A stretch of 60,830 bases of DNA from Acidimicrobiia bacterium (GTDB lineage: Bacteria; Actinomycetota; Acidimicrobiia; Actinomarinales; Actinomarinaceae), in assembly GCA_028376655.1 (NCBI GenBank), contig JAONAZ010000006.1, positions 1 through 60,830 of the forward strand. The letters run 5' to 3'. The position numbers were made by a program, and so were the translations under genes. Below, in pieces: positions 27,586 through 60,830 of the stretch. A model generated the notes under the pieces. It was not told where the DNA came from, did not search any database, and saw only the letters and a list, made by a program, of their open reading frames with translations. Numbering within the stretch: position 1 is the stretch's first letter; every line of letters starts with the position of its first letter.

Positions 27586-28251
27586 TTAGACTTTTTCTCC
27601 TGATTGAACTTTTGCCATATTAAGAACTAATACACCAAGACCGACTTTGTTAATAATGTCAGCAACTGTGTATAGAAGCTCTCTCAAGTCCATTAAGTCT
27701 GGACTCACTGCTGGTGCTAAGAATCCTAATGGATAGATTATCCAACCAATAAGAATAAGATTCTTGATTTTTTGGAATGCTTCACCTGCATCACCTGTTA
27801 GTGATGTACCTTCAGCTTGTAGTGCTCTCATTAGAAATGCATAAGCAACCATCGATACTACAAAACCAGTCCAGTATTGTGCATCTCCAGCTTCTGCTGA
27901 TACTTCTCCGTAATATCCTCCACCAATCATTACAAGTGCAGCTGCACCCATAGTTCTGACTTTTTGGGCATACTCTGCACCTTTAGATGTTACTGCAAGA
28001 ACTTCTACGAACATTAATGGAACGGTTAGTACCCAATCAACATATCGCAAAGGTGTGTCAAAGTCTCCTGATGCAAAAGATACTGTCATTTTTTGGTAGT
28101 GATACCATGCAATTCCAGTCACTAATGCTGAGATATATACACCTCTTCTGAATTTCGGATCAACTTCTCTTGATGACATCAGTAAATATACTGTTCCTGC
28201 AAGCATACCTGCAGTTGCCACCATAAAGAGTCTGTATGTAAGTTCGGCCAT
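27586..28251 (-). CDS. Proton-pumping type-1 rhodopsin (MACRhodopsin / proteorhodopsin-like)
   Basis: ALVTGIAWYHYQKM; RYVDWVLTVPLMFVE (Asp-Thr-Glu pump motif, Met at the tuning position); helix G ADIINKVGLG retinal Lys; AAGGAG SD upstream. Confidence 0.96.
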   Translation of the reverse strand: MAELTYRLFMVATAGMLAGTVYLLMSSREVDPKFRRGVYISALVTGIAWYHYQKMTVSFASGDFDTPLRYVDWVLTVPLMFVEVLAVTSKGAEYAQKVRTMGAAALVMIGGGYYGEVSAEAGDAQYWTGFVVSMVAYAFLMRALQAEGTSLTGDAGEAFQKIKNLILIGWIIYPLGFLAPAVSPDLMDLRELLYTVADIINKVGLGVLVLNMAKVQSGEKV

Positions 28252-31165: not shown

Positions 31166-31253
31166 AAAAATTTACCTCTTACTTCAGTAATCATATAAAG
31201 ATTTGTTGGTCTTCACAATGAAAGTATTTTTATTTTTTAGATAAATTTACCTG

Positions 31254-31338
31254 TGCCCGGGGGGGGGACTCGAACCCCCACATCCTTTCGAATAACGGAT
31301 TTTAAGTCCGTCGCGTCTACCGATTCCGCCACCCGGGC
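31254..31338 (-). tRNA. tRNA-Leu(UAA)
   Basis: GCCCGGGTGGCGGAATCGGTAGACGCGACGGACTTAAAATCCGT...GGGGGTTCGAGTCCCCC...GGGCA; anticodon TAA, long variable arm; see finding on the G9 homopolymer. Confidence 0.92.
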
Positions 31339-39882: not shown

Positions 39883-39955
39883 GGCCTCGTAGCTCAGGGG
39901 ATAGAGCACAGGTTTCCTAAACCTGGTGTCGCAAGTTCGAATCTTGCCGAGGCCG
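39883..39955 (+). tRNA. tRNA-Arg(CCU)
   Basis: GGCCTCGTAGCTCAGGGGATAGAGCACAGGTTTCCTAAACCTGGTGTCGCAAGTTCGAATCTTGCCGAGGCCG; 7-bp acceptor pairs, anticodon CCT; followed by C then T-tract. Confidence 0.95.
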
Positions 39956-40126
39956 CTTTTTTTTAACTACATATATATGTGTCCTGTTTACTGACAGATG
40001 ACATTTTAAATACGTTGCAAAAGTCTTTGTAAAAATCATTGAAATAAGTTGTATTCATTGGGCTTTTTAGTGTTTTTGTAAAATAGTTTTGCGACGCGGA
40101 AAGCAGGTATGACAGATGAGATTGCA

Positions 40127-40192
40127 GAGCGCTTCCCTTGCAAGGAGGAAGTCACAGGTTCAAATCCTGTAGCGCCCACAAGGGTTTTTCAG
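40127..40192 (+). repeat. tRNA 3'-fragment repeat A (tRNA-Ala-like, anticodon loop CTTGCAA) plus adjoining AGGGTTTTTCAG; 5' half absent
   Basis: GAGCGCTTCCCTTGCAAGGAGGAAGTCACAGGTTCAAATCCTGTAGCGCCCACA; no matching GGGCGCT acceptor strand upstream. Confidence 0.85.
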
Positions 40193-40215
40193 ATATTGCC
40201 CTATAAAAATAGCCC

Positions 40216-40248
40216 TGCGACCCGCATACGACCAGCTTTTAGTGTGAT
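40216..40248 (+). repeat. Two 11-bp imperfect tandem repeats plus TTTAGTGTGAT downstream of repeat A
   Basis: TGCGACCCGCA TACGACCAGCT then TTTAGTGTGAT. Confidence 0.55.
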
Positions 40249-40279
40249 TTTATTGAATAAGTTCCCTAAATCCCTCGAT

Positions 40280-40718: not shown

Positions 40719-42167
40719 ATGTCGTATGAACAAACACTCAAAGCAGTAGATGATATTTTAAGAACTGATGCTGGGTGTGCAACACCAATTGACTACATTG
40801 AACAAACTTCCTGGATCCTCTTTTTAAAATATCTCTCAGATTTAGAGAAAGAACGCATTGATGAGGCAACACTTAAAGGTAACGAGTATAAACCATTATT
40901 CTCTGATGAATTTACCTGGGATACATGGGCGGTACCAAAAAAAGCAGATGGTTCACAAGATATTGTTAACGCCTTAACAGGAGATGATCTTTTAGAATTT
41001 GTAAATTTGAAACTCATACCGTATCTTAAAACTTTCAAAACTGATGCTGAGAACTCAAATACTTTAGAGTATAAAATTGGAGAAGTCTTTTCAGAGATAG
41101 GCAATAGACTACAAAGTGGATACACCCTACGTGATGTCTTAAACAATGTGGATTCTCTTCGTTTCCTCTCCATTGAGGAAAAGCATGAAATGTCACATCT
41201 CTATGAAGAAAAGATAAAAGATATGGGTAATGCTGGAAGATCTGGTGGTGAGTATTACACACCAAGACCTTTGATTCAGTCAATTGTAGAAAAAGTAAAT
41301 CCAAAGATTGGTGACACTGTTTACGACCCAGCTGTTGGTTCTGCAGGATTCTTAGTTGAGGCATTTAAACATATGTCTAAGGATAAATTAAGTGTTGAAG
41401 ATGTAGAGACTTTACAATTTAAAACATTTTATGGCAAAGAGAAGAAATCTTTAGCGTACATTATCGCCATTATGAATATGATTTTACATGGTGTGGATGC
41501 ACCAAATATCTTACATATCAATACGTTGACAGAGAATATCTTAGATGTACAGGACTCTGAGCGACATGACGTCATCTTAGCTAACCCACCATTTGGTGGA
41601 AAAGAGAGAAAAGAAGTCCAGCAAAACTTTCCTATTAAAACTGGTGAAACAGCATATCTCTTTATGCAGCATTTTATTAAGTTACTTAAAGCTGGAGGTA
41701 GAGCAGGTGTAGTAATTAAGAATACATTTTTATCAAATGTTGATAATGCATCAGTATCACTTAGAAAAGAATTACTTGAAACCTGTAATCTTCATACAAT
41801 ACTAGATCTTCCTGGTGGAACATTTCCAGGAGCAGGAGTAAAAACTGTAGTATTGTTCTTTGAAAAAGGTTCTCCAACTAAAGAAATTCAATACTATCAA
41901 CTTAATTTAGATAGAAATATTGGCAAAGGACAGCCTCTGAATTTAGATGATCTTGATGAATTTAGAAATTTAGCTAAGGATTCAAATTCAGAAAATACCT
42001 GGACTCTTGGTATTAAAGATATAAATCAGGAGACTTTAGATTTAGGTGTCGTTAATCCTCATATTGAAGAAGAAGCTTTACCAGATCCGAGTGATATTTT
42101 AAATGAAATTGAGAAACTTGAAAAAGAATCTTCAACACTTCTAAAACAAATTAAAAAATTAATCTAA
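40719..42167 (+). CDS. hsdM: Type I restriction-modification system methyltransferase HsdM
   Basis: GNAGRSGGEYYTPRPLIQSIV, DPAVGSAGFLVEAF, ANPPFGGKER. Confidence 0.96.
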   Translation: MSYEQTLKAVDDILRTDAGCATPIDYIEQTSWILFLKYLSDLEKERIDEATLKGNEYKPLFSDEFTWDTWAVPKKADGSQDIVNALTGDDLLEFVNLKLIPYLKTFKTDAENSNTLEYKIGEVFSEIGNRLQSGYTLRDVLNNVDSLRFLSIEEKHEMSHLYEEKIKDMGNAGRSGGEYYTPRPLIQSIVEKVNPKIGDTVYDPAVGSAGFLVEAFKHMSKDKLSVEDVETLQFKTFYGKEKKSLAYIIAIMNMILHGVDAPNILHINTLTENILDVQDSERHDVILANPPFGGKERKEVQQNFPIKTGETAYLFMQHFIKLLKAGGRAGVVIKNTFLSNVDNASVSLRKELLETCNLHTILDLPGGTFPGAGVKTVVLFFEKGSPTKEIQYYQLNLDRNIGKGQPLNLDDLDEFRNLAKDSNSENTWTLGIKDINQETLDLGVVNPHIEEEALPDPSDILNEIEKLEKESSTLLKQIKKLI

Positions 42168-43288
42168 TGAAATTATACGAAATAGAAAATATTGCAAATA
42201 TAAATTATGGCACGAGAGTAGTAAAAAAAAGAGATTCGGGAACAATATATGATGTATATGGGGGTGGAGGTAAAACATTCAAAGTTGATTCATACAACCG
42301 TGAAAACTGCGTAATAATATCAAGATTTGGGATGTCTGAAAAGTGTGTTCGTAGAGTAGATGGAAAATTTTTTTTAAACGATTCAGGTTTATCTGTTGAA
42401 ACGAAAGATCCAAATGTAGTTATTCAAAAATATATAGATTGGTTTTTATTTTCAAAAATGTTTGATATCTATCTTCTTGGGAGAGGGGCAGCTCAAAAAA
42501 ACTTGGATGTTGATAAATTTAGATTGATCAAAATTCCAGTTCCATCTCTTCATGAACAAGAAAAAATTGTTGAAAGGTTAGATAAGGTTGTTGAAAATAT
42601 AGATAAGTTAACTAATGATGTAACAAAGAATATTGAAAATAGTAAAAATTTATTTTTTAGTTATTTGAATGAAACTTTTAGAGGAGATAGCTCTGGAGAT
42701 TTGATCGAACTAGAAAAACTATCTACATATATTTCAAGAGGGATGCAACCTAAATACACTGATAATTCTAAAACATTAATTGTTAATCAAAGGTGTATAA
42801 GGGACAATCAAATTAACTTTGAAGTCGGTAGGTATCATGACCAAAATATTAAAAAAGTTTCCGATGATAAAAAAATACAAATTGGCGATATCCTAATAAA
42901 TTCAACTGGCGTTGGTACTTTAGGGAGAGTTGCACAAGTGACAGAGTTGCCAAGTAATGATGTAACTGTTGATACCCATGTGACAATATTTCGTCCAAAT
43001 TTTAATATTTTAAGTAAAGAATTTACTAATTGGCTATTTATATATCTAGAGAAACTAATAGAAAAAATGGGAGTCGGGGCATCGGGTCAAACAGAGTTAA
43101 GAAGAGAAGATCTTAAAAATATGAAAATTATAAATCCTCCGAATGAAAAGATTCAACAAGATATTTCGGACAGGCTTAATAAATTAAAAAATCCTTACGA
43201 CAATTATTTGAGACTTAAAGAAGATCTGATTATTAAGTACTCAATGTTAAGAAAATCAATATTAGATAAAGAGTTTTACTATGAATGA
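42167..43288 (+). CDS. hsdS: Type I restriction-modification specificity subunit HsdS
   Basis: Two target-recognition halves with IPVPSLHEQEKIVERLDKVVENIDKL conserved helix; between hsdM and hsdR. Confidence 0.93.
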   Translation: MKLYEIENIANINYGTRVVKKRDSGTIYDVYGGGGKTFKVDSYNRENCVIISRFGMSEKCVRRVDGKFFLNDSGLSVETKDPNVVIQKYIDWFLFSKMFDIYLLGRGAAQKNLDVDKFRLIKIPVPSLHEQEKIVERLDKVVENIDKLTNDVTKNIENSKNLFFSYLNETFRGDSSGDLIELEKLSTYISRGMQPKYTDNSKTLIVNQRCIRDNQINFEVGRYHDQNIKKVSDDKKIQIGDILINSTGVGTLGRVAQVTELPSNDVTVDTHVTIFRPNFNILSKEFTNWLFIYLEKLIEKMGVGASGQTELRREDLKNMKIINPPNEKIQQDISDRLNKLKNPYDNYLRLKEDLIIKYSMLRKSILDKEFYYE

Positions 43289-45590
43289 AGCAGAGACAAG
43301 AGCAGAGTTAATTGATCCAGCATTAAGAGAACTTGGCTGGGTAACTGAAGATAACGTAAAAGTATCAAGAGAGTTCAAAATAAATAATGGAAGAATTCTT
43401 ACTGGTGGAAGAAATACAGATCCAAAAATAGCTGATTACTTGCTCACGGTTAATGATCAAGATCTAGCAGTCATAGAAGCAAAATCAGATGAAAAACCAC
43501 TTAGCGAGGGGGTTCCACAAGCTAAGAAATATGCTCAACTACTGCAAACACGATTCACTTATTCAACCAATGGTAAAGAGATTCTCCAGATTGATATGGA
43601 GACAGGTAAAGAAGAGAAAGTACATAACTACCCAACACCAGAACGACTCTGGGATATGGTCCATGGCAATATTACCGACTGGGAATCTAAATTTAACAAA
43701 GTGTCTTATGAAACCTTCTCTGGAACAAAACCACTTCGTTATTACCAGAAAAACGCTGTAAATAATGTCTTAAAAGCAATTGCAAACGGCGAACAACGAT
43801 TGCTACTTACTCTTGCCACAGGAACTGGTAAAACATACATTGCATTCCAGATTGCATGGAAGCTTTTTAATGCAAGATGGAATAATAGAGGTGCTAAAGA
43901 TCAGAGACCAAGAGTATTGTTTTTAGCTGATAGAAACATCCTTGCTGACCAAGCATATAACTCATTCTCAGCCTTTGCAGAAGATGCATTAGTGAGAATT
44001 AGACCAGGAAAATTGGGTACTTCAGGATCAATATTTTTCACTATCTTTCAGACCTTTATGACAGGTACAGGCGAAGAAACAGATGGTGTTGAAGATTTTG
44101 ATGTAAAACGATATGAAGAGTACCCACCAGAGTTTTTTGATCTCATCATTATTGACGAGTGTCATAGAGGTGGAGCAAAAGATGAATCTAACTGGCGTGC
44201 CATTATGGAGTATTTCGAACCTGCAGTTCAACTTGGTTTAACAGCAACCCCAAGAACAAAAGATAATGCCAATACCTATAAATATTTTGGTAAACCTGTT
44301 TATCAGTACTCACTAAAAGAAGGTATTCAAGATGGTTTCTTAACACCTTATAAAGTACAAAATATTAAAACACAATTTGATAAAGATAATGAAGAGTATA
44401 TTTACCGTCCAGATGACTTGGTTCTTGAGGGAGAAATAGAGGAAGGAAAAGTTTATTTCTCAAAAGACTTCAATAGATCCATAATTATCAAGGCAAGGGA
44501 AAAAGAAAGAGTAAAAAAACTCCTCTCTGAAATTGATCAGAATGAAAAGACACTTGTTTTTTGTGCAACACAGACACATGCTTCTTTAGTAAGAGACTTA
44601 ATCAATAAATATAAAGATTCAGATCATGATGATTACTGTCATAGGGTAACTGCAGATGATGGAGAGATTGGTGAAAAACACCTTCGGAGCTTCCAAGATA
44701 ACGAGAAAACAGTTCCAACTATTTTAACTACATCGCAAAAGCTCTCCACTGGTGTTGATGCTAGAAATGTGAGAAATATTGTGTTATTTAGACCTGTTGG
44801 ATCAATGATTGAGTTCAAACAGATTATTGGTAGAGGAACACGACTCTTTGATAAAAAGGATTACTTTACGGTATATGACTTTGAAGATGTTTACTTAAAA
44901 TTCTTTGATGTGGAGTGGGATGGTGAATCTATTGATCCAGATCCTCCTTCTGAACCTAAAGAGCCAAAAGAACCTCGTGAGCCAAGAGAACCTCGAGGGT
45001 CTAGAGAGAAAGTCATCATTGAGCTGAGCGATGGTCGAGAAAGAGAAATTACTCATACTACAAAAACATTCTTTTTTGGTAATGAAGGACAGACACTGAC
45101 TGCACAACAATTTATTGAGGAACTATACAACACTTGTATGTTGCCAGAGATATTTGAATCAGAAGATAAATTAAGAGAGTTATGGTCGCTCCCCTCGACG
45201 AGAAAAGCTTTACTTAAAAGCCTAGAAACTGCTGGCTTTAGTTATGAAGACTTAAAAGAGATTCAGAAAATCATTGACGCTGAGAAATCAGACATTTTTG
45301 ATGTATTAGAGTTTGTTGCTTTTGCAAAGAAACCAATAACCAGAATGGAGAGAATTGAAAGCTCAGAGAAAATGCTTGAAAATGAATTTGGTGAGGCACA
45401 AATGCAATTTATCAGTTTTGTACTTGAAGAATATGAAAATGAAGGAATCACAGTTCTTGATGACGAGAAACTTCCTATATTGCTAGAGCTAAAGTACCAA
45501 TCTATTGAAAATGCAAAAAGTATTCTTGGAGACCTAGCAACAGCTAGAAATGTATTTTTAGACTTTCAAAAAGTTTTATATTTAATTTAA
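43281..45590 (+). CDS. hsdR: Type I restriction enzyme endonuclease/translocase subunit HsdR
   Basis: NDQDLAVIEAKSDEK (nuclease), LATGTGKTYIAFQI, IIDECHRGG, IIGRGTRLF; EPKEPKEPREPREPRG linker. Confidence 0.95.
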   Translation: MNEAETRAELIDPALRELGWVTEDNVKVSREFKINNGRILTGGRNTDPKIADYLLTVNDQDLAVIEAKSDEKPLSEGVPQAKKYAQLLQTRFTYSTNGKEILQIDMETGKEEKVHNYPTPERLWDMVHGNITDWESKFNKVSYETFSGTKPLRYYQKNAVNNVLKAIANGEQRLLLTLATGTGKTYIAFQIAWKLFNARWNNRGAKDQRPRVLFLADRNILADQAYNSFSAFAEDALVRIRPGKLGTSGSIFFTIFQTFMTGTGEETDGVEDFDVKRYEEYPPEFFDLIIIDECHRGGAKDESNWRAIMEYFEPAVQLGLTATPRTKDNANTYKYFGKPVYQYSLKEGIQDGFLTPYKVQNIKTQFDKDNEEYIYRPDDLVLEGEIEEGKVYFSKDFNRSIIIKAREKERVKKLLSEIDQNEKTLVFCATQTHASLVRDLINKYKDSDHDDYCHRVTADDGEIGEKHLRSFQDNEKTVPTILTTSQKLSTGVDARNVRNIVLFRPVGSMIEFKQIIGRGTRLFDKKDYFTVYDFEDVYLKFFDVEWDGESIDPDPPSEPKEPKEPREPREPRGSREKVIIELSDGREREITHTTKTFFFGNEGQTLTAQQFIEELYNTCMLPEIFESEDKLRELWSLPSTRKALLKSLETAGFSYEDLKEIQKIIDAEKSDIFDVLEFVAFAKKPITRMERIESSEKMLENEFGEAQMQFISFVLEEYENEGITVLDDEKLPILLELKYQSIENAKSILGDLATARNVFLDFQKVLYLI

Positions 45591-45594
45591 ATAC

Positions 45595-45768
45595 TTAATT
45601 ATTAATTTTTTGAATTTCTGCTTTTAATTCATCAATAAAACCCCTAAAAGTTTCTTCTTCTAGATTTGCTAGTTTCTCTGCAAATTCTAATGTAAAACTT
45701 GCAGTCATCTTATTAATACCCTTTTTATTAGTAAAGGTGCTAAAGAACAATTGTTTTTTATCTACCAT
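45595..45768 (-). CDS. Hypothetical 57-aa protein
   Basis: MVDKKQLFFSTFTNKKGINKMTASFTLEFAEKLANLEEETFRGFIDELKAEIQKINN* fills the gap after hsdR. Confidence 0.4.
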   Translation of the reverse strand: MVDKKQLFFSTFTNKKGINKMTASFTLEFAEKLANLEEETFRGFIDELKAEIQKINN

Positions 45769-45835
45769 ATTCAATTTTACTTGATTTGTACTAAAAAAGT
45801 TCGTAAATGAAAGATGGAAATGTTAGATTTATTAA

Positions 45836-46444
45836 ATGAGCGAAAATGAAATATCAGATGAGGTATTAAAAGCAATCAATGCATGGAAAATTTCCCTATT
45901 AGATTTAACAGGTAGAAATCAATTGCTTTTTCTTAAAGATTATAAATATCAGATTGATCTGGATAAATTAAATGATGCTGAAGGAAATAATTTTGACATT
46001 AAAAGGTTTACCCAAGAATTATTAAGTAACAGTAATAATGATCAATTTGAGATTGCACCTATAGATTTTTTTACAAATGACAATACAGAGGATATGCCTG
46101 AACAAAATATTAAGAATGTAGGTGAAGTAGAAAATCAAGAATCAGAAGATTTACATTTAAATAATATTTTGCAAAAATTAAATGAATATGCTTTAGATAA
46201 AAAGATTTTTGATGAGGAGATAATTAAGAAAGCATTCTCTGAAGCATTAAAAATTTTTGAAGACTTAGGATATTCGGATGATATAGAAAAATGGGATGAA
46301 GAAGCTTTGCCCAACTTAATAGAAGAAACGAAAAGGATTCTTAATGACTCAACAAGTAAAAATAACCAAAATCCAGAAAAAAGTATTTCAGATCTAGAAG
46401 GTGTAACAAATTTATTAAATAAATTGAGAGATAATGACAATTAA
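45836..46444 (+). CDS. DUF4011-like N-terminal domain protein
   Basis: VLKAINAWKISLLDLTGRNQLLFLKDYK resembles the DUF4011 start (W...LLDLT.RN.LL.F); overlaps the next gene by 11 nt. Confidence 0.65.
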   Translation: MSENEISDEVLKAINAWKISLLDLTGRNQLLFLKDYKYQIDLDKLNDAEGNNFDIKRFTQELLSNSNNDQFEIAPIDFFTNDNTEDMPEQNIKNVGEVENQESEDLHLNNILQKLNEYALDKKIFDEEIIKKAFSEALKIFEDLGYSDDIEKWDEEALPNLIEETKRILNDSTSKNNQNPEKSISDLEGVTNLLNKLRDNDN

Positions 46445-49400
46445 TTCTTCACAAAATGAAGATGTCGCTAAGAAGGCTCAAGATACTCTTGATCAAAAAA
46501 AACAAAATTTTGAAAAAAGCCTCAATACTCAAATAAGAAAAGAAAAATCTGCAAATGAAGAAAAAGGTATATCTATTATTAAATTTGCTAAATTTTCTGC
46601 AACATGGAATGTAGATAATAAACAACCTAAAGCTCCTGTTTTCTTAGCTGATGTAACAATCAGAAAATCGGGAAAACATTTTCTTAATATCTCAAATGAA
46701 TTTGAAATAAATAATGTACTTATTCAGTATTTCAAAAATGAGCGAAAAATAGAACCATCACCAAAAATAACTGAATTAATGAAAAACCCAGTCAAATTAG
46801 ATGAAATGAGTGAAGTCATTAAAACTTTAAAGAAATATTACTTAAATGAAGGTATTCATGGGTTCGAAATTACTGATATGAATTTTATTGGTTGCTTTGA
46901 TTACTCTACACAGGCAATGGTCAAAGATCTGGAATCAGAAGAATTTCAGAATTTAGTGATGGAACATGAGCTAGGTGAGGCTATAGCTACTGCAGATTTT
47001 GACAAGATTGATAAAAAGATCATAGATCAATACAAAATTAATGATAAAGATGTTTATGAAGAAATTGATACTCTTAAGCCATCAAAAGAATTTATTATCT
47101 TAGATGCAGACTCATCTCAACATTCTGCAGTATTAGCAGCTGGTAAAGATCTGCACCTAATAATAAAAGGGCCTCCAGGAACAGGGAAAAGTCAAACGAT
47201 TGCAAACATGATCAGTTACTGTGCATCACTGGATCCGCCAAAAAAGATATTATTTGTTTCTGAAAAACGAGCAGCAATAGATGCTGTTAAAAAGAGGCTG
47301 GATGAAAAAGAATTAGGGTTTTTAACTCTCGATGTTTTCGAAGGACTAAAACCTAAAAATAAAAGAGCGCTTTATGAAGAGCTTAAAAATGATTTAGAAA
47401 ATACAACTCAAATAACTACTTCTGTTCTTGAGGCACAAAATCTAGATAGAGAACTTCCAATCATTAGAAAAAAACTGATTTCTTTTAAAGACGATATAAG
47501 TAATCAAACTTACTCGGAGTTATCGTCATTTACAGTAGACGCGTTAGAAGAACAGAGTATAGATTCAGCTCTTGAAGAATATTATTTTTTGCTTTCCAGA
47601 ATTAAAGACAAATCCTTAATAACTTTTCTTGAAGAATTAAAAGATAAAGATTCTCTAACTTCTATTAACGAAACAGATCTTAATTTGATAAAAAAAGCCA
47701 TATCTGACAAAAATAAAATTGTCGTTTCTAATATTAAGGATCTTTCTGTAATTGAAAACAAAATCTTAGCAAACGATGACTTTAAAAATATTGAAAGTAT
47801 TCAGAACCTTATAGAAGCTTTTCAAAATATTGTGCAGCTAAACGATGAGGCCAATCAAAAAAAATTTGCTGAGCTTAGTCACCTATTCGAAATGAAAATA
47901 GATAACTTTAAGAGCATCCAAGAACTTACAGAGATAGCACAAAATATAAATAATGTTTTAGATGTTTGCAACTCAGAAGTATTTTCTATAGATGTGGAAA
48001 CAATTACTCACAAAATAGGAAGACTTGAACAAATAAAAAATAAAAATAATCAAGAAAAAATAAAGCTATTAAACAAAGAACTAGATAACTCAATAAAGCC
48101 CTATCTACTCAGAAGATTCTTTTCACTAAAAAAGAAAAGAATTGAAGCTATAAAAAATATAGCTACAGCAAAAAATATTCTAAGTAAATATGATTTAGAT
48201 TATTCCAAAATTGAAGATTTCAACTATATTTTTTCTGAAATAAGTAAAAAATTTAACTCTCTTGAGGAAAATAAATCACTTATCGAAGAATATACTAAAT
48301 ATAAGTTCAATGAAATTGAAACTATAAAAGAAATTACAACAGAATTTGAACAACTTTTAGAAAATACCCTTCTCGAAGAGTCATTAAATATCGCAGCAAT
48401 AAATCACAATGTAGCCAAGCATAATTTAGATAAATATTTTGAAATGTTCTATACGTGCAACAATGAAGATCTTGATATCTTCCTAAAAACACTAATTTTT
48501 AAATTAAGACTAAATCAAGTCTTGTCAACAATAGATACGAATACTCAAAATAGAAATGAATTGTTAAGAAAATTTTCAAAATTGGACAGCGATGACAGAA
48601 TGAGTGCCAATATAAAATATATTAAGAAAAAATATCGAGATAAAATTAATCACTCAGTTATAAAATATGATTCTCAATATCAAAAAATTAGAAGGGAGGC
48701 TAACAGAAAAAGAGGTCAAGCAAATATTAGGACAATTCTAGACAAAGCACCTGATTTGATGTTAGATGTTAAACCGTGTTGGATTATGTCACCACTAGTT
48801 GCTTCCCAAGTTCTACCTAGAAAGCAGATGTTTGATATTGTTATTTTTGATGAATCAAGCCAAGTTACTCCTCAAGCTGCAGTAACTGCAATTGCCAGAG
48901 GGAAAAAATTAATACTTGCAGGCGATGAAAAACAATTAGCTCCTACAAACTTTTTTCAATCAGAAATATCAGAGGACGTTGATACAGATATTACAGACTT
49001 TGAATCTATCCTCAATCTTGTAGATGCACTAATACCACCACTTGGAAATAGAAAACTGGAGTTTCACTATAGGAGTAGAGATGAAAGACTTATTTCGGTA
49101 TCAAATATTTTCATGAAATATAATCTAAATACTGTCCCTAGTGTGGTTGACATAAATGCAGTGGACTTTATAAAAGTGGATACAGAAAAGCCCTCAACAC
49201 AGGGTACAAATCCTGATGAAGTAGTCAGGGTATGTGAAGCAATTTCACAACATATGAAAGAAAATAAATCAAAATCTTTAGTGGTGATTGCGTTCGGAGT
49301 AAATCATCAAAAGCAAATTGAAGAATTATTTTTTAAGGAATATGAAAATGAACCACATATCAAGGAGTTCATAGATGATTGGGAAGAATCAGTAGAACCA

Positions 49401-50090
49401 TTTAGAATTAAAAATTTAGAAACTGTACAAGGTGATGAGAGAGACCATGTAATTCTTTCAGTTGGATACGGTAAAGGAGAAAATGGACGAATTGCTTATA
49501 GATTTGGACCAATTAATCAAAAAGGCGGTGATAGAAGACTAAATGTAGCTGCCAGTAGATCAAAAGAAAAAATGACCATTGTCTCAACAATTTCTTATCA
49601 AGAGTTAGATGACAGGAAGCTCTCAAGTGAAGGACCAAAAATGTTCAAAGGTTTACTACAGTATTTTGAACTTGAAGCACAGGCTGAAGAAAAAGATAAG
49701 GGACTTGCTGGTTTGCAAGCTTTTGGAAACTTTCAGTTAGATAAACCACAACTTAATCAAATTGAAGAACAAGTACTTAAGAGTATTGAACAACTGGGAT
49801 TTATTGTTACTCCACAATTTGGAGTTTCAGGATATTATATTGATTTTGTAGTGGCTCATCCTAGTAGACCGGGGAAATGGCTTCTTGCTGTTGAATTTGA
49901 CGGAGCAAGATATCATTCTTCGAATACTGCTCGAGATAGAGATAGGCTTCGACAAAACAACTTGGAAAATCTTGGATGGAAATTCTTTAGAATTTGGTCA
50001 ACAGACTGGTTTAATAACAAACGTCAAGTTCTTGAAGATCTTGAGAATGCTTTAAATGAAGAGTTTGCCAAATTACCTAAAAATGACTGA
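46434..50090 (+). CDS. Large SF1 (COG1112-like) helicase with C-terminal Vsr/MTES_1575-like nuclease domain
   Basis: IIKGPPGTGKSQTIANMI, IFDESSQVTPQAAVTAI, LAGDEKQLAPTNFF, ETVQGDERDHVILSVGYG, C-term GYYIDFVVAHPSRPGKWLLAVEFDGARYHSSNTARDRDRLRQNNLENLGWKFFRIWSTDWF. Confidence 0.9.
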   Translation: MTINSSQNEDVAKKAQDTLDQKKQNFEKSLNTQIRKEKSANEEKGISIIKFAKFSATWNVDNKQPKAPVFLADVTIRKSGKHFLNISNEFEINNVLIQYFKNERKIEPSPKITELMKNPVKLDEMSEVIKTLKKYYLNEGIHGFEITDMNFIGCFDYSTQAMVKDLESEEFQNLVMEHELGEAIATADFDKIDKKIIDQYKINDKDVYEEIDTLKPSKEFIILDADSSQHSAVLAAGKDLHLIIKGPPGTGKSQTIANMISYCASLDPPKKILFVSEKRAAIDAVKKRLDEKELGFLTLDVFEGLKPKNKRALYEELKNDLENTTQITTSVLEAQNLDRELPIIRKKLISFKDDISNQTYSELSSFTVDALEEQSIDSALEEYYFLLSRIKDKSLITFLEELKDKDSLTSINETDLNLIKKAISDKNKIVVSNIKDLSVIENKILANDDFKNIESIQNLIEAFQNIVQLNDEANQKKFAELSHLFEMKIDNFKSIQELTEIAQNINNVLDVCNSEVFSIDVETITHKIGRLEQIKNKNNQEKIKLLNKELDNSIKPYLLRRFFSLKKKRIEAIKNIATAKNILSKYDLDYSKIEDFNYIFSEISKKFNSLEENKSLIEEYTKYKFNEIETIKEITTEFEQLLENTLLEESLNIAAINHNVAKHNLDKYFEMFYTCNNEDLDIFLKTLIFKLRLNQVLSTIDTNTQNRNELLRKFSKLDSDDRMSANIKYIKKKYRDKINHSVIKYDSQYQKIRREANRKRGQANIRTILDKAPDLMLDVKPCWIMSPLVASQVLPRKQMFDIVIFDESSQVTPQAAVTAIARGKKLILAGDEKQLAPTNFFQSEISEDVDTDITDFESILNLVDALIPPLGNRKLEFHYRSRDERLISVSNIFMKYNLNTVPSVVDINAVDFIKVDTEKPSTQGTNPDEVVRVCEAISQHMKENKSKSLVVIAFGVNHQKQIEELFFKEYENEPHIKEFIDDWEESVEPFRIKNLETVQGDERDHVILSVGYGKGENGRIAYRFGPINQKGGDRRLNVAASRSKEKMTIVSTISYQELDDRKLSSEGPKMFKGLLQYFELEAQAEEKDKGLAGLQAFGNFQLDKPQLNQIEEQVLKSIEQLGFIVTPQFGVSGYYIDFVVAHPSRPGKWLLAVEFDGARYHSSNTARDRDRLRQNNLENLGWKFFRIWSTDWFNNKRQVLEDLENALNEEFAKLPKND

Positions 50091-50131
50091 GTGACTTTTC
50101 AGCTCTAAACTTTATTAATTTGATTCATACT

Positions 50132-51199
50132 TTATAAGAATCTGCCCTTAAATACTTTGCCTATCTCCCCAGGTGAGATTTCTAAAACCTGGTTTCCAGA
50201 TCGAGTATATATTTTCTCAGTACCGGATTTAAGGCTTAAGCTAGCATATGAATACTGAACTTTTCTTGGTGGGACTGTTATTCTTACAACTTCTTTATCT
50301 TTTATATTGTCAAAAGAAAAAACTAATTCAAGAGACGAAAATTTATCAATAAAATCACTCACCCACTTTCTCCACGTTAATTCAAATTCATCTTTATTTT
50401 TTAAGCTTTTTATTTGTTGGTCTATCTGCCAACCAGTTATTTCTCCCCCATTTTTGCCATCTTGTAATCCGATTATTAATACACCTCCATCTGAGTTTCC
50501 AAAAGCACAAATTAATTTTAGTATTCCGTTTCTTACAGATTCTGATTTACCTGCAATGTATTTTTCATTTTTACCCTCTGCGACTTTTTTCATTTTATGT
50601 TCTTCTCTTTGATCCCAAAAACTTGTTTCTTTAAATTCGAGCCACTGGTTTTCATCTTTTGATGAAAGTACTAATGTCTCTGTATTTACGGTATTTAAAA
50701 ATCCACTAGTTTTCATTACAATTTTTAGCAGAGGATATAAAACAAATTCTGCATATATTTGAGATACGATAACTTTATCAATCTTACGAAGACCAACTGC
50801 AAAATAGCCCCCTTCTTCAACTGCTTGTATGTTGTTTTCAATTACTAATGATCTCAATTGAGTACTGTAATTTTTTAATTCATAAACAGACCTTTTATCT
50901 TTGATAATTTTTAGTCCATCACTAATTAGGGTAAATGGCTCAAGATAAACTTCTTCACTAAATTCCATGTCAGCCCACCAACTCATTGTTATATCTTCTA
51001 AGGTAACATGATTCTTGATCGCATCTAAAAAAAAAGGATTATCGATATAAATTTTGTAATTTTTAAAATTAATTTCAAACTCTGTCCCATTTAATATGGT
51101 TTTACTTGAAATATAAATATTATTTTTCTCATCTAAAGCTAAGCTATAATCGTCATTTTTAAAAAATGATAGGCCTGTTGATTGGTGTTCGTTTTTCAT
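50132..51199 (-). CDS. AlbA_2 (Schlafen-like AAA_4) DNA-binding domain protein
   Basis: ENQWLEFKETSFW...ILKLICAFGNSDGGVLIIGLQDGKNG. Confidence 0.82.
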   Translation of the reverse strand: MKNEHQSTGLSFFKNDDYSLALDEKNNIYISSKTILNGTEFEINFKNYKIYIDNPFFLDAIKNHVTLEDITMSWWADMEFSEEVYLEPFTLISDGLKIIKDKRSVYELKNYSTQLRSLVIENNIQAVEEGGYFAVGLRKIDKVIVSQIYAEFVLYPLLKIVMKTSGFLNTVNTETLVLSSKDENQWLEFKETSFWDQREEHKMKKVAEGKNEKYIAGKSESVRNGILKLICAFGNSDGGVLIIGLQDGKNGGEITGWQIDQQIKSLKNKDEFELTWRKWVSDFIDKFSSLELVFSFDNIKDKEVVRITVPPRKVQYSYASLSLKSGTEKIYTRSGNQVLEISPGEIGKVFKGRFL

Positions 51200-56529: not shown

Positions 56530-56580
56530 CTTCCCTTACAAGGAAGAAGTCACAGGTTCAAATCCTGGCTCACTCCAGCA
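56530..56580 (+). repeat. tRNA 3'-fragment repeat B (tRNA-Val-like, CTTACAA loop)
   Basis: CTTCCCTTACAAGGAAGAAGTCACAGGTTCAAATCCTG identical to repeat C over 38 nt; no 5' half. Confidence 0.85.
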
Positions 56581-56621
56581 CCCGATTTTCTTATTGATCC
56601 AATTACTATAAAGCAAGTTCC

Positions 56622-56645
56622 TAGTGGTTTTTGTAGTGGTTATTT
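56622..56645 (+). repeat. 12-bp tandem direct repeat downstream of fragment B
   Basis: TAGTGGTTTTTG TAGTGGTTATTT. Confidence 0.5.
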
Positions 56646-56695
56646 GTATCTTTCTCAGAGGCATAATCAGTAGTATTTTTTATTAACGTATAAAC

Positions 56696-56720
56696 AAAAG
56701 GGGAACTCACACATTCCCCT
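56696..56720 (-). terminator. Possible terminator hairpin downstream of the SDR gene
   Basis: AGGGGAA/TTCCCCT 7-bp stem, 8-nt loop, short T run on the minus strand. Confidence 0.4.
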
Positions 56721-56898
56721 CTCTAAAGTCAAAGACCTTCTATCGATAAATAGCTAGGTCGTAACTCTACTTCAAATTATACCCACCTTAGAAACCATAG
56801 AAAGTAGGGTAAAATTTAGTAAATTAAAACTCATAAATATTAAATAATCTTATCAAGTAATGTCTTCAGTTTTTTTCTATAAATGTTTGTGCAGTGTT

Positions 56899-57780
56899 TT
56901 AAAAGTGCTGTAAACCTAGTTCTGTTTTTAGTAAAGTGCGAAAATCATCTAATTCACTTTGACTAACTGAGTAATTTTCTATAACTTTTGGATTTCCTTT
57001 AAAAGCAGAACCAGAACCTTTTGGACCAATGTAGTCTCCATTTTTTACCTCACTAGAAAGGACACCCATTAATTGTGAGAGTGCACCTTGGTGAATTGTC
57101 ATCCCAAAAAATTTCATCACGTATACCCAAAAAGGCCCACTTATACCCACTCCACCCATCTTGCGAGTGTTTATTTGTAGTTGCGAAGCAGTACCTCCAG
57201 GATGCGCTGCGATTGATAAAGCATCAATATCTTGTTCTCTGAAATATTGAGCTAACGCTTTGGCGTAATATACATCTCCTAATTTTGAATTGGAGTACGA
57301 CTGCCAAGGTCGGTATTCTTTTGTTAGTTTTAGCATTTGTTTTTGGAGTGGTCGTCCAGAATTACTTGCCACACTGCTTAAGGATATAACGCGAGCATCT
57401 GGCGTAGTTTTAATAAGTGGAACTAATAAGTCGGCAAGTAGTGCGTGTCCAAGAACATTGACACCAATTTGCATCTCATAGCCTTCTTTAGTTTCACTGG
57501 GAGGTGTAGCCATCAATCCTGCATTTAACATTAAGACATTTAATTGTTTTTCTTTATTTAAAACATATGTAGCACATTCTCGTATAGAGTCAAAAGAAGA
57601 GAGGTCGCAGTGAACATACTCAACCTGATCTCTTAATTGTGGATCAAAAGACTTAATTGCTTCAAGTGTTTTTTCCTCTGAACGACAGGCCATATATATG
57701 TAATAACCTTCTTTAAGTAATTTTTGTGTGCTTGCATAACCTAGTCCAGAATTTGCTCCTGTAATTATTCCTATTTTCAC
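56899..57780 (-). CDS. Short-chain dehydrogenase/reductase
   Basis: GIITGANSGLGYAS, LNAGLMATP, SYSNSKLGDVYYAK (YxxxK-like). Confidence 0.9.
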   Translation of the reverse strand: MKIGIITGANSGLGYASTQKLLKEGYYIYMACRSEEKTLEAIKSFDPQLRDQVEYVHCDLSSFDSIRECATYVLNKEKQLNVLMLNAGLMATPPSETKEGYEMQIGVNVLGHALLADLLVPLIKTTPDARVISLSSVASNSGRPLQKQMLKLTKEYRPWQSYSNSKLGDVYYAKALAQYFREQDIDALSIAAHPGGTASQLQINTRKMGGVGISGPFWVYVMKFFGMTIHQGALSQLMGVLSSEVKNGDYIGPKGSGSAFKGNPKVIENYSVSQSELDDFRTLLKTELGLQHF

Positions 57781-57866
57781 TATGTAAATATATATTCATC
57801 AGGTTTATATATATTTAGATTTTTTTCGGTACATCAAGTAAATCGGCGATAAGCTTATGTTTATTG

Positions 57867-57900
57867 TGGCCAGAGGCAGAATCGAACTGCCGACCCCTTG
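57867..57900 (-). pseudogene. tRNA 3'-fragment E (Phe/Met-like 3' end), minus strand
   Basis: Reverse: CAAGGGGTCGGCAGTTCGATTCTGCCTCTGGCCA; no GGCCAGA 5' acceptor strand nearby. Confidence 0.6.
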
Positions 57901-58004
57901 TTTTTGAGATAGAGGCTAATCTTCTAACTTTTCTTTACTGTCTTGTCAGTAAATCTATATTGTAAATTACTGAAAAAAAGAGATTAGACCTAAAATATTT
58001 ATTT

Positions 58005-58127
58005 ATGAATATAGATAAAATTCTCATTGGTGCAGTTATTGTTTTAATAATTTGCTTTCTTATTTATATTTCTTTTGCATTGATATCAATACCTTTTGTA
58101 ATACTGTTCTCATTATTTACTCCATAA
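58005..58127 (+). CDS. Possible 40-aa membrane microprotein
   Basis: MNIDKILIGAVIVLIICFLIYISFALISIPFVILFSLFTP*. Confidence 0.35.
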   Translation: MNIDKILIGAVIVLIICFLIYISFALISIPFVILFSLFTP

Positions 58128-58226
58128 GCAATAGTCAGTAAGGTAACCATTACAAGTAGGAACCTTATCTTGATACATTAAAAATCTTTTATTACACATC
58201 CCACAAATCTTTTTCTTATCAGCCAA
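58113..58226 (-). CDS. Possible 37-aa Cys-rich zinc-ribbon microprotein (TTG start)
   Basis: MADKKKICGMCNKRFLMYQDKVPTCNGYLTDYCLWSK*; CGMC resembles the 54525 protein. Confidence 0.35.
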   Translation of the reverse strand: MADKKKICGMCNKRFLMYQDKVPTCNGYLTDYCLWSK

Positions 58227-58288
58227 TTAACACCCAAAATGTAGACAAACAGATGCGTTTACTTGAGTTTGTGATAATATTTAATTTA

Positions 58289-58573
58289 ATGAAAACAACA
58301 AAACCAAATCTAGAAGAGCGCACAGTTGATTTTAATGGAAGAGAAATCAAAGTATCCAATTGGTGGAATTGGAAACTCCAAGGTGCTGCTGACCTTTATC
58401 TAGATGGTGAACACTTAGATCAAAACAAAGATAAAATTGCTACCGGCAAAAAAGTATCTCTTTCTAAATATGATATATCTGAAGACATTAAATCTATTGA
58501 AGTATATGTATCATTCTTTTTTAAACTTAAATTTAAGATTCTTGTAAATGGAAATATTATCTATCAAGATTAA
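58289..58573 (+). CDS. Hypothetical protein (about 94 aa)
   Basis: Likely start MKTTKPNLEERTVDFNGREIKV inside the ORF-track entry at 58253. Confidence 0.5.
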   Translation: MKTTKPNLEERTVDFNGREIKVSNWWNWKLQGAADLYLDGEHLDQNKDKIATGKKVSLSKYDISEDIKSIEVYVSFFFKLKFKILVNGNIIYQD

Positions 58574-58968
58574 ATACGATCAACTCTCCCTCTAAAAATT
58601 CTTACTAAAAAGCTTTCCTTGTCTTTAATAGGGTTATAAGATTTGTTATTTTTTTCAATTTCTTTCACGACAACTTCTTCAGAGTCAAATTTTTCAAACT
58701 CCTGTAAAGTTTCTTCATCGTAAATATCTTTATCTTCTTCCATAGTCTCTTTAGAGCCATCATCACTACTAGGTGTTTTTGAACTTCTGAAAATACCTGA
58801 GAGGAAGAATACAATCACTAAACCCCCTATTGCACCACCAATACTCTCACCAGAAAAGGTTCCGGATAAAATATCATTAATTATTCCAGAGACAATGGAG
58901 AAGAGTAGGAATATAGAGAAAAATCTTCTAATTACTTTAGAAAGAGAGAGTTTTGGTTTTTTGTTCAT
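58570..58968 (-). CDS. Hypothetical membrane protein with acidic cytoplasmic segment
   Basis: Two hydrophobic segments then an acidic tail. Confidence 0.5.
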   Translation of the reverse strand: MNKKPKLSLSKVIRRFFSIFLLFSIVSGIINDILSGTFSGESIGGAIGGLVIVFFLSGIFRSSKTPSSDDGSKETMEEDKDIYDEETLQEFEKFDSEEVVVKEIEKNNKSYNPIKDKESFLVRIFRGRVDRI

Positions 58969-58979
58969 CTAAATATAAC

Positions 58980-59354
58980 TTAGTTTAAACCTGCTTTAAA
59001 AGTTTTTATTTTTGGCTCCATAGCAGCTAAGTTGTTTTTCATTTCTTCTGATACATCACCTAAGATGGTCATATTTTCAAACTTAGCTAACTCACGAAAT
59101 TTCAGATTAACTGGAGTGCCCAATGCTTTTGTAGCAAGTTCTCCAAAACTCTCGGCATTATCAAATACCTCAACTAATGTCGCTGTGTTGGTATCTTCAT
59201 CAACGTACCATTCAAATTTTTTAAGACCTTCTACACCTAAGCTATCAATAAACTGACATTGTTCATTTTCAATAAAATCTATAAACTCTTCTGCAGACGT
59301 ATAGCTCACATCTATAACGACTCTAAGTTCTCCACTGTTTTTATGTAATTCCAT
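58980..59354 (-). CDS. Hypothetical protein, possibly dimeric alpha-beta-barrel/ABM-like
   Basis: FEWYVDEDTNTATLVEVFDNAESFGELATKALGTPVNLKF. Confidence 0.5.
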   Translation of the reverse strand: MELHKNSGELRVVIDVSYTSAEEFIDFIENEQCQFIDSLGVEGLKKFEWYVDEDTNTATLVEVFDNAESFGELATKALGTPVNLKFRELAKFENMTILGDVSEEMKNNLAAMEPKIKTFKAGLN

Positions 59355-59401
59355 GTAGTCTCCTTTTAATAACAAATCTTATATTAATAATAATGTATTT
59401 T

Positions 59402-59453
59402 GAGCGCTTCCCTTACAAGGAAGAAGTCACAGGTTCAAATCCTGTAGCCGACA
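59402..59453 (+). repeat. tRNA 3'-fragment repeat C (tRNA-Val(TAC)-like)
   Basis: GAGCGCTTCCCTTACAAGGAAGAAGTCACAGGTTCAAATCCTGTAGCCGACA; 45/47 identical to repeat A over the shared core; no 5' half. Confidence 0.85.
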
Positions 59454-59457
59454 TAAA

Positions 59458-60543
59458 TTATTTGCTAAGTGCTTGGTCAGAAAATATTACTTTTCCATTC
59501 ACAACTTCAGCATCATACCAATACTGTCTTGCGATGGTCATCATTTCAGAACTAAAGTAGTCTCCATTACAAGTACTAAAAATAGTTGCGTTTAATAAAA
59601 GCTCTTCATCAAGGTCGCCTCTTTGAACTAATAAATATAGACCTATCGCTGCTTTTTCAGCGATAGCGGGATCTTTAAATTCTGTTGTACTCTCTCCAAC
59701 AGCAATAATATGTTTTATAAACGTTAACCATTCTCCCATTAATTGTTCTTTTGGTATGTTTTGCAAAGTTGCTGTGGTCACCCAGGCAAAATAATTTGCA
59801 CCTCCTTCGACTAAAGCAAAGCTATCTTCTGGAGAATCTGAAAGAAGACAGTCATCTAAATAGGGTAGATGAATTTGTAATGCATGAAAAATTTCATGAA
59901 AAAATACAAACTGTAATTCTATAGGAATTTTCTTTCTCTCGGGATCTATGGTTATTATGACAGTTTTTTTGTTGGATAGTTCCGGGCATAATGCAGCCTG
60001 GACTTGCTGCCCTCCACCTATCTCAGCATAACGAGCAATCTCATAAGCTTGTTGTTCTACATTACACTCAGGACCATAAAATTCTAAAACTCTTTCATAT
60101 ATAGTTGAAACTTCATTCTCATTAAGGACGGGTTCAAAACCAGCTCCTCTGTAAGGAGTATCATTATTTTGAAGTTCACCAACATAATCCCCAACAGGAT
60201 AAATTATGAGAAGTGTTTCAATCTCTGTAGGTATAGTTTTGGATAATGCATAGTTGTAACATTGAATTAGATTCTCATCTGGTATGGATGAGAGATTAAC
60301 TAGGAATAATTCTTCTTTTGGTGGAGGTGCGTCAGGACATTCAAATGAAGAATATCTCTCTTCAAAAGGAACTAGAGGTGCAATAGATTCTTCCTCAAGA
60401 AGAGGATTCTGAACTACATATTTAGTTGTTGTAGTAGTAGAAGTAGCTTGCTCTACTGCTTGCTCAATTTGTTCTTGAATTTCTGATTCCGTTGGTCCAC
60501 AAGATACAAAGATAAGTAAAAGTACGAAGAATTTAGTATTCAT
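59458..60543 (-). CDS. Thr-rich lipoprotein with HExxH metalloprotease-like motif
   Basis: Lipobox FVSCGP, ATSTTTTTKYVV, FVFFHEIFHALQIHLP. Confidence 0.7.
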   Translation of the reverse strand: MNTKFFVLLLIFVSCGPTESEIQEQIEQAVEQATSTTTTTKYVVQNPLLEEESIAPLVPFEERYSSFECPDAPPPKEELFLVNLSSIPDENLIQCYNYALSKTIPTEIETLLIIYPVGDYVGELQNNDTPYRGAGFEPVLNENEVSTIYERVLEFYGPECNVEQQAYEIARYAEIGGGQQVQAALCPELSNKKTVIITIDPERKKIPIELQFVFFHEIFHALQIHLPYLDDCLLSDSPEDSFALVEGGANYFAWVTTATLQNIPKEQLMGEWLTFIKHIIAVGESTTEFKDPAIAEKAAIGLYLLVQRGDLDEELLLNATIFSTCNGDYFSSEMMTIARQYWYDAEVVNGKVIFSDQALSK

Positions 60544-60564
60544 ATTCTAATTCTAATCATTTAA

Positions 60565-60613
60565 GCAAGGGCTCACAGGTTTAAATCCTGTAGCGCCTAC
60601 AGGGGTTTTTCAG
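60565..60613 (+). repeat. tRNA 3'-fragment repeat D (diverged copy of A) plus GGGGTTTTTCAG
   Basis: GCAAGGGCTCACAGGTTTAAATCCTGTAGCGCCTACAGGGGTTTTTCAG. Confidence 0.8.
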
Positions 60614-60638
60614 TAATTAACCCAAATATTTATATGAA

Positions 60639-60669
60639 AACCGCACAATAACCGCACATTTAGTGTGAT
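60639..60669 (+). repeat. Two 11-bp tandem repeats plus TTTAGTGTGAT downstream of repeat D
   Basis: AACCGCACAAT AACCGCACATT, TTTAGTGTGAT overlapping the end. Confidence 0.65.
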
Positions 60670-60678
60670 AATATTTAT

Positions 60679-60830
60679 GTGAAAAAACTTAATATCTTAA
60701 TATTATTTTTAATAATTTATTGTGTTGGGGGTGAAATTGCTGAAGAACCTACAACTACTTCGACTTCAACGACTGCTTCGACTTCAACGACTACTTCGAC
60801 TTCAACGACTACTACTGTTCCAGAAATCAT
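60679..60830 (+). CDS. Thr/Ser-rich lipoprotein, partial (GTG start, 3' end outside window)
   Basis: MKKLNILILFLIIYCVGGEIAEEPTTTSTSTTASTSTTTSTSTTTTVPEI; three 18-bp tandem repeats at 60757-60810. Confidence 0.65.
   Translation, partial: MKKLNILILFLIIYCVGGEIAEEPTTTSTSTTASTSTTTSTSTTTTVPEI

Follow-up and report, generated by a model that had tools for sequence, protein, structure and literature searches.

Introduction

Why would a bacterial chromosome carry the 3' part of a tRNA gene several times over, at a distance from the gene itself? This question is raised by a contig of an Acidimicrobiia bacterium from the family Actinomarinaceae (GenBank assembly GCA_028376655.1, contig JAONAZ010000006.1, positions 1 to 60,830), which was analysed over its whole length of 60,830 nucleotides and is called the window here. 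Four such fragments, A to D, lie in it, and an earlier model-made note (the original prediction) had read the last three of them as the leftovers of repeated insertion at a tRNA 3' end, which would have stacked small cassettes one upon another. Our analysis supports this stack by the recurrence of the arrangement across the genus and by breakpoints at the fragments, with the addition that A, C and D are ectopic, not placed behind an intact tRNA-Val. With a probability of roughly 0.8, we regard the fragments as attachment-site cores at the joints of small, site-specifically integrated cassettes.

The source genome (G000; 883 kb in 34 contigs, estimated completeness 79%), of which the window is contig C31, was set beside 42 genomes of one genus, which is Candidatus Actinomarina-like. 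Codes of the form G0nn denote genomes, C numbers contigs and L numbers fetched stretches. The genome was examined through stretches around tRNAs, and fragments of tRNAs beyond those stretches may be missed.

Fragments of tRNA-Val(TAC) in the window

Aligned to the genome's own tRNAs, A to D are all 3' parts of tRNA-Val(TAC) on the forward strand, and the tRNA 5' half is missing from each, as the original prediction had it. The claimed identity of B (56530-56567) and C (59407-59444) holds at 38 of 38 nucleotides, and A (40132-40169), said to resemble C, differs at 2 positions of the same match; shuffled sequences gave an expectation of 0 matches. The sole intact copy of tRNA-Val(TAC) that was found lies on another contig (G000:C1:26309-26382).

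The fragments were then judged as tRNAs with ARAGORN and Infernal (cut-off 29 bits). On the window, ARAGORN called just a tRNA-Leu(TAA) at 31253-31338 on the reverse strand and the tRNA-Arg(CCT) of Table 1, and none of A to D. The Infernal scores were 29.6 bits for C, 27.2 for A and 17.4 for B, and C passed solely with the D-arm deleted and the acceptor stem mispaired. The fragments are thus not intact tRNAs. A, C and D are cores at varying stages of decay, and B is without its 3' end; for its odd right end (GGCTCACTCCAGCA) a hybrid-tRNA origin was considered, and no matching tRNA end was present in the fetched loci.

Two details of the original prediction had to be amended. The segment between B and C does hold small genes, but it is composite rather than one cassette, and the reversed tRNA-Phe fragment inside it, E, had been overlooked. 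Between C and D there is indeed a single lipoprotein-like gene; its stop codon lies 9 nt from C as mapped, not 5 bp.

Arrays of small cassettes across the genus

A genome-wide search found further copies of the core and of its fragments, in the source genome and far beyond it. The tRNA-Val(TAC) probe had matches in 40 of the 42 genomes, and 3' fragments were present in 32 of the 42, with 65 fragments among the matches listed. These are mostly one and the same 3' part, starting at tRNA position 23, 28 or 32 and ending at position 74. Behind the intact tRNA-Val(TAC), one to three fragments in the same orientation were found in 16 of the 20 fetched loci. Each unit lies between the intact tRNA, or a core, and a directly repeated copy of the tRNA 3' end; those of the window have cores on both sides.

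The 16 loci yielded 26 cassettes with a median length of 1.27 kb (range 0.23-5.2 kb). Counting open reading frames (ORFs) of at least 50 aa, 22 of the 26 have no more than two and 13 no more than one. The first ORF starts close behind the core and is directed away from it in 20 of 25 cassettes. The cargo comprises an NgoPII-type restriction pair, an HNH protein and T5orf172/MUG113, as well as lipoprotein-like genes. Two cassettes are fused: L078 (first cassette of G035) and L083 (first cassette of G006) join the first 625-658 bp of a cassette with a 173-aa gene to other cargo, the break lying close to the start of the right-end module described below.

Exchange between species and ectopic cores

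Between species, segments have been gained, lost and reordered with breakpoints at the fragments. G016 and G037 have a 2082-bp cassette in common, contained in a 2186-bp block of 99.4% identity that begins at core position 28 and ends 10 bp beyond the next core, while the two genomes agree at 72% in core-genome DNA (2 kb from ABC ATPase to tRNA-Arg). The array of G016 has this cassette in second place, that of G037 in first. A one-gene cassette of 738-741 bp is 98.2% identical between G022 and G036 and 96.5% between G022 and G028, at 78-79% identity of the core-genome DNA; G036 and G028 are themselves close relatives (98%). The C-D cassette of the window matches G011 at 98.8% over 1172 bp without gaps, from 59411 (inside C) to 60582 (inside D), the core-genome DNA being 81.5% identical. 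In the five clear pairs, the common blocks end within ~20 bp of the core on both sides. Since whole cassettes without an integrase are near-identical across 72-81% core-genome identity and occupy different array positions, some of them have moved recently.

The position of C is conserved too. A homologue of the same 131-aa gene, or sequence matching that upstream of C, precedes a C-like core in seven other species (G013, G027, G030, G022, G017, G041 and G019), and the DNA downstream of the core differs among those seven. Other ectopic Val cores lie behind tRNA-Ile (G031, G012, G009) and behind a gene ending ...FINDL (G019 and G026, with related sequence in G030). Val fragments also follow tRNA-Arg(CCT) in G011, G012 and, as A, in G000; at the other fetched tRNA-Arg(CCT) loci there was no Val fragment within the stretch read, some of these stretches being short. 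Our guess is that the core reached its ectopic places by secondary-site integration.

A common design of the cassette ends

The core is usually followed by CAAGGGTTTTTCAGAAATC. A perfect direct-repeat pair of at least 7 nt is present in 24 of the 51 distinct left ends, and all 24 pairs have a spacing of 11 nt and start 36-40 nt after the core. By comparison, shuffled left ends gave a mean of 0.32 perfect pairs, and 0.07 at spacing 11. The repeat is constant within a pair and variable between cassettes (GACACC, ACCGAACA, ACCCACA, ACCGCACA, GACGCG and others). At the right end, upstream of the core, many cassettes have a module of ~105 bp with two groups of ~11-nt repeats, and nearly all good copies of this module in the genus adjoin a Val core. 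Judged by their sequence, the left and right ends of a cassette would form a phage-type attP if they were joined, and the phased repeats on both sides of the core are putative recombinase-binding arms.

When GTDB genomes were scanned for the junction of right end and core, 18 stretches were returned, nearly all from records titled Candidatus Actinomarina or OCS155 cluster. The stretch L203 (PATA01000003.1) comes from a record titled as a Flavobacteriaceae metagenome-assembled genome and has an Actinomarina-type right end and core; it is probably a misbinned contig.

Cassettes at other tRNAs of the source genome

The cleanest cassette of the source genome is on contig C6 (L038 2185-3739). Here a one-gene cassette of 1.4 kb and high G+C content (46%) sits exactly between an intact tRNA-Val(GAC) and a 43-bp stretch that repeats the 3' end of this tRNA without mismatch, and CGTTCCCAAATCGTTCCCAAAA-type repeats are present at both ends of the cassette; its gene, named by eye, is lipoprotein/esterase-like. 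On contig C1, two Phe fragments lie behind the intact tRNA-Phe. MFS-like and DsrE-like genes occupy the space up to the first fragment, and a lipoprotein-like gene with a C-terminal tyrosine-recombinase remnant stands between the first and the second (genes that were not searched are named by eye).

The MFS/DsrE pair occurs in three contexts: behind tRNA-Phe in G000 (L039 1709-6708), next to the C-D lipoprotein cassette in G011 (L101 2975-4600), and behind the 106-aa gene in G012 (L103 8198-9985).

Search for a recombinase

The PF00589 search of the genus found about two proteins per genome, and representatives of both types are Xer-class (XerC/XerD). The exception is one full tyrosine integrase in G007, located beside tRNA-Leu in a region with two tRNA-Ile copies. 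The genus-wide positions of PF00589 and PF00239 revealed no integrase in tRNA-Val(TAC) cassettes. Integrase remnants occur at Phe and Ile only (G000 in the Phe cassette, G014 between Ile fragments), and the units are otherwise devoid of integration genes; transfer genes were not searched for separately. PF00239 (serine recombinase) had no match in the genus, and representative genus recombinases score far below the cut-off for an integron integrase. The absence of attC sites, part of the original prediction, is based on this lack of an integron integrase, no attC-specific search having been made.

Viral contigs were searched for a helper with core, core-plus-left-end and right-end patterns, and nothing relevant was found; nor did the G007 integrase have a relative among them. 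The sole match of the patterns, L119, is a high-G+C element that lies at an unrelated tRNA and has a serine recombinase, and it was rejected. A composite attP-like sequence tried as a helper probe matched just tRNA-like stretches in phages. XerC and XerD are not favoured as movers; both types resemble ordinary Xer proteins. Since neither a helper nor a cassette integrase was found, we infer a recombinase acting in trans, and homologous recombination and decay are kept as rivals.

As to the G007 region itself (L120 5844-10882, G007:C1), its two tRNA-Ile(GAT) copies are complete and 5 kb apart, with DNA-methylase and restriction-like genes between them, and the integrase ends 20 bp from tRNA-Leu(TAA).

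A model of cassette integration and its alternatives

In the model that we favour, the fragments, which are 3' parts of tRNA-Val(TAC) and in the case of E of tRNA-Phe, would have been left at cassette joints. The cassettes would integrate site-specifically, either at the 3' end of a tRNA or at an ectopic copy of that core. An intact cassette would have two att half-sites, one made of the 11-nt-spaced repeat pair after the core and the other often of the ~105-bp module before the next core, and in a circularised cassette these would join as a phage-type attP. The intact tRNA and every retained core would be open to newcomers, each of which would rebuild the core that it used and displace older cassettes outwards, giving tandem arrays. 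The moving would be done by a tyrosine recombinase supplied in trans, perhaps by a rare autonomous relative, a phage or a plasmid. The recurrence of the fragments across the genus, the common design of the ends, the exchange of whole cassettes with breakpoints at the cores, the conserved core C with its changing downstream neighbours and the integrase remnants in the Phe and Ile cassettes count in favour of this model. On the other hand, several points weigh against it: there is no direct evidence for excision or circular forms; no recombinase of matching specificity was found in the genus, the viral contigs or the phages; decay has affected A to D of the window in part; and the source genome has no copy of the 105-bp right-end module.

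Could the DNA be moved by homologous recombination instead, with cores and right-end modules as short homology anchors and island stretches replaced by double crossover? Together these two elements provide ~150 bp of near-identity between cassettes, no dedicated recombinase was found, and a general way in which islands are replaced in marine bacteria is cited in PMC7771536. However, the blocks of the five clear pairs end close to the cores and not at variable lengths, and both the phased 11-nt arm pairs at their fixed distance and the integrase remnants would be left unexplained, so that we consider this unlikely. We are similarly doubtful, though slightly less so, that the cassettes are dead cis-mobilizable elements (CIMEs), left over from ordinary islands with an integrase after genome streamlining had trimmed them, and immobile as units. 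Integrases and their remnants at Phe, Ile and Leu sites would fit such an origin, as would the many decayed arms and cores (B and D of the window among them) and the fused cassettes in G035 and G006; immobility is at odds with cassettes that lack an integrase and are nevertheless near-identical, at different array positions, between species of 72-81% core-genome identity.

Two further explanations concern the fragments as such. Assembly chimeras at the repeated core are very improbable: some contigs (G011:C44 and G012:C2) do end exactly in the core, but many independent genomes, several of which bear the names of single-cell isolates, have arrays in the interior of long contigs, and in G011 the C-D unit is present again with identical ends. 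Even less credible is a function of the fragments as RNAs or tRNA genes, such as split tRNAs or ones without a D-arm. The marginal Infernal score of C speaks for it; the 5' half and the acceptor partner are missing, ARAGORN calls none, an intact tRNA-Val(TAC) is present, and the length and decay of the fragments are variable.

Comparison with known systems

The cassette phenomenon is already known, since tRNA-targeted cassettes marked by tRNA direct repeats were reported in 2020 for the island fGI1 of 'Ca. Actinomarinales' (Lopez-Perez et al. 2020, PMC7771536), the same organisms as here, together with cassette transfer between genera and a prophage in tRNA-Val of AH-324-A03. In the available portion of that paper's main text, the end architecture, integrase-less cassettes, exact interspecies exchange and conserved ectopic cores are undescribed, and an integrase is unmentioned. 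Against that portion of the record, the site-like cassette ends, the integrase-free exact exchange between species and the conserved ectopic cores seem to be new.

In the accretion of integrative and conjugative elements (ICEs) and integrative and mobilizable elements (IMEs), CIMEs are, like our cassettes, tandem elements with attL and attR and without integration genes, and they can be mobilised with their neighbours (PMC5704250). They are decayed ICEs or IMEs and usually large, whereas the units here mostly have one or two genes and pass intact between species; the cassettes also have a common end design, with almost no integrase in the genus. The ssrA islands of Dehalococcoides likewise form a series of direct repeats of an RNA gene 3' end downstream of the intact gene; 15 of them are without an integration module, as our cassettes are, and 16 have serine recombinase modules (PMC3146451). 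Their repeat is 20 bp of ssrA, in contrast to a tRNA here, where the genus has no serine recombinase domain. Tycheposons, too, are tRNA-bordered cargo islands of streamlined marine bacteria (PMC10872708, PMC11389934); they are described as spanning 4-200 kb (PMC10872708) and having their own tyrosine recombinase, in contrast to 0.2-5 kb and no integrase here. Integron cassettes and clusters of attC sites lacking integron-integrases (CALINs) are alike in being arrays of small, often one-gene cassettes with a recombinase possibly in trans (PMC11389934). By contrast, there is no integron integrase here, and the joints seen are tRNA cores with flanking repeats.

It is possible, and we suggest it tentatively, that these genomes run an integron-like cassette economy. 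A cassette would then be hardly more than a gene with an attP-like end pair, docking at the tRNA-Val core or its conserved ectopic copies. Its transport in trans would fall to a recombinase that is not retained by the streamlined cells, and the variable 11-nt arm pair would be the tag that selects this recombinase. If accessory genes such as restriction systems and lipoproteins are indeed carried in att cassettes free of integrases, this would explain how a streamlined genome can maintain a flexible gene pool cheaply. The end structure is a searchable signature for cassettes overlooked by integrase-based tools, and single-gene swapping among streamlined marine bacteria becomes a testable question.

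Layout of the window

The features around the fragments are collected in Table 1.

Table 1. Fragments, genes and segments of the window, with positions counted from its first letter.
Feature	Position	Strand	Remarks
tRNA-Arg(CCT), intact	39883-39956	+	ARAGORN; closely upstream of A; no Val fragment near this locus in most other species
Fragment A	40124-40178	+	tRNA-Val(TAC) positions 20-74, 96% over 55 nt; putative ectopic att core
Cassette left end behind A	40179-40260	+	CAAGGGTTTTTCAG and degenerate arm-like pair (GCGACCCGCATACGACCAGC, CGACC pair, 11-nt spacing)
Defence block behind A	40719-51199		Type I restriction-modification (M, S, R), PDC-S37/Hhe-like helicase-nuclease-like protein, Schlafen AlbA protein; Pfam, PADLOC
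Stretch colinear with G012:C8	51280-54736		87% identity
Fragment B	56530-56567	+	tRNA-Val(TAC) positions 28-65; unrelated sequence in place of 3' end
Short-chain dehydrogenase (SDR) segment	56568-58227		SDR gene at 56899-57780 (-)
Fragment E	57867-57909	-	tRNA-Phe positions 31-73, 98%; inside B-C, orientation opposite to A-D
106-aa gene	58248-58574	+	95.7% to L103 7559-7885; in G012 directly behind Val core with cassette left end
131-aa gene	58980-59375	-	Precedes C and its counterparts in several species (tblastn, flanks)
Fragment C	59402-59448	+	tRNA-Val(TAC) positions 23-69; conserved ectopic core
Lipoprotein-like gene, 361 aa	59458-60543	-	Sole gene of C-D cassette; no Pfam match
Fragment D	60573-60597	+	tRNA-Val(TAC) positions 48-72
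Left end of next cassette behind D	60598-60680	+	GGGGTTTTTCAG and arm pair ACCGCACAATAACCGCACATTT; cassette continues past contig end

The left end behind A has, in its sequence, the layout of the other left ends. The stretch colinear with G012 is probably resident, because its identity to G012 resembles that of core-genome DNA. In G012 the fragment corresponding to B is longer (positions 25-74), and a cassette left end and the 106-aa gene come immediately after it; the SDR segment and the reversed Phe fragment are missing there. Within the genus, a full-length relative of the 361-aa lipoprotein-like protein is found in G011 only. Elsewhere in the window, an ORF at 27586-28251 resembles a rhodopsin by eye only and adjoins a photolyase-like gene.

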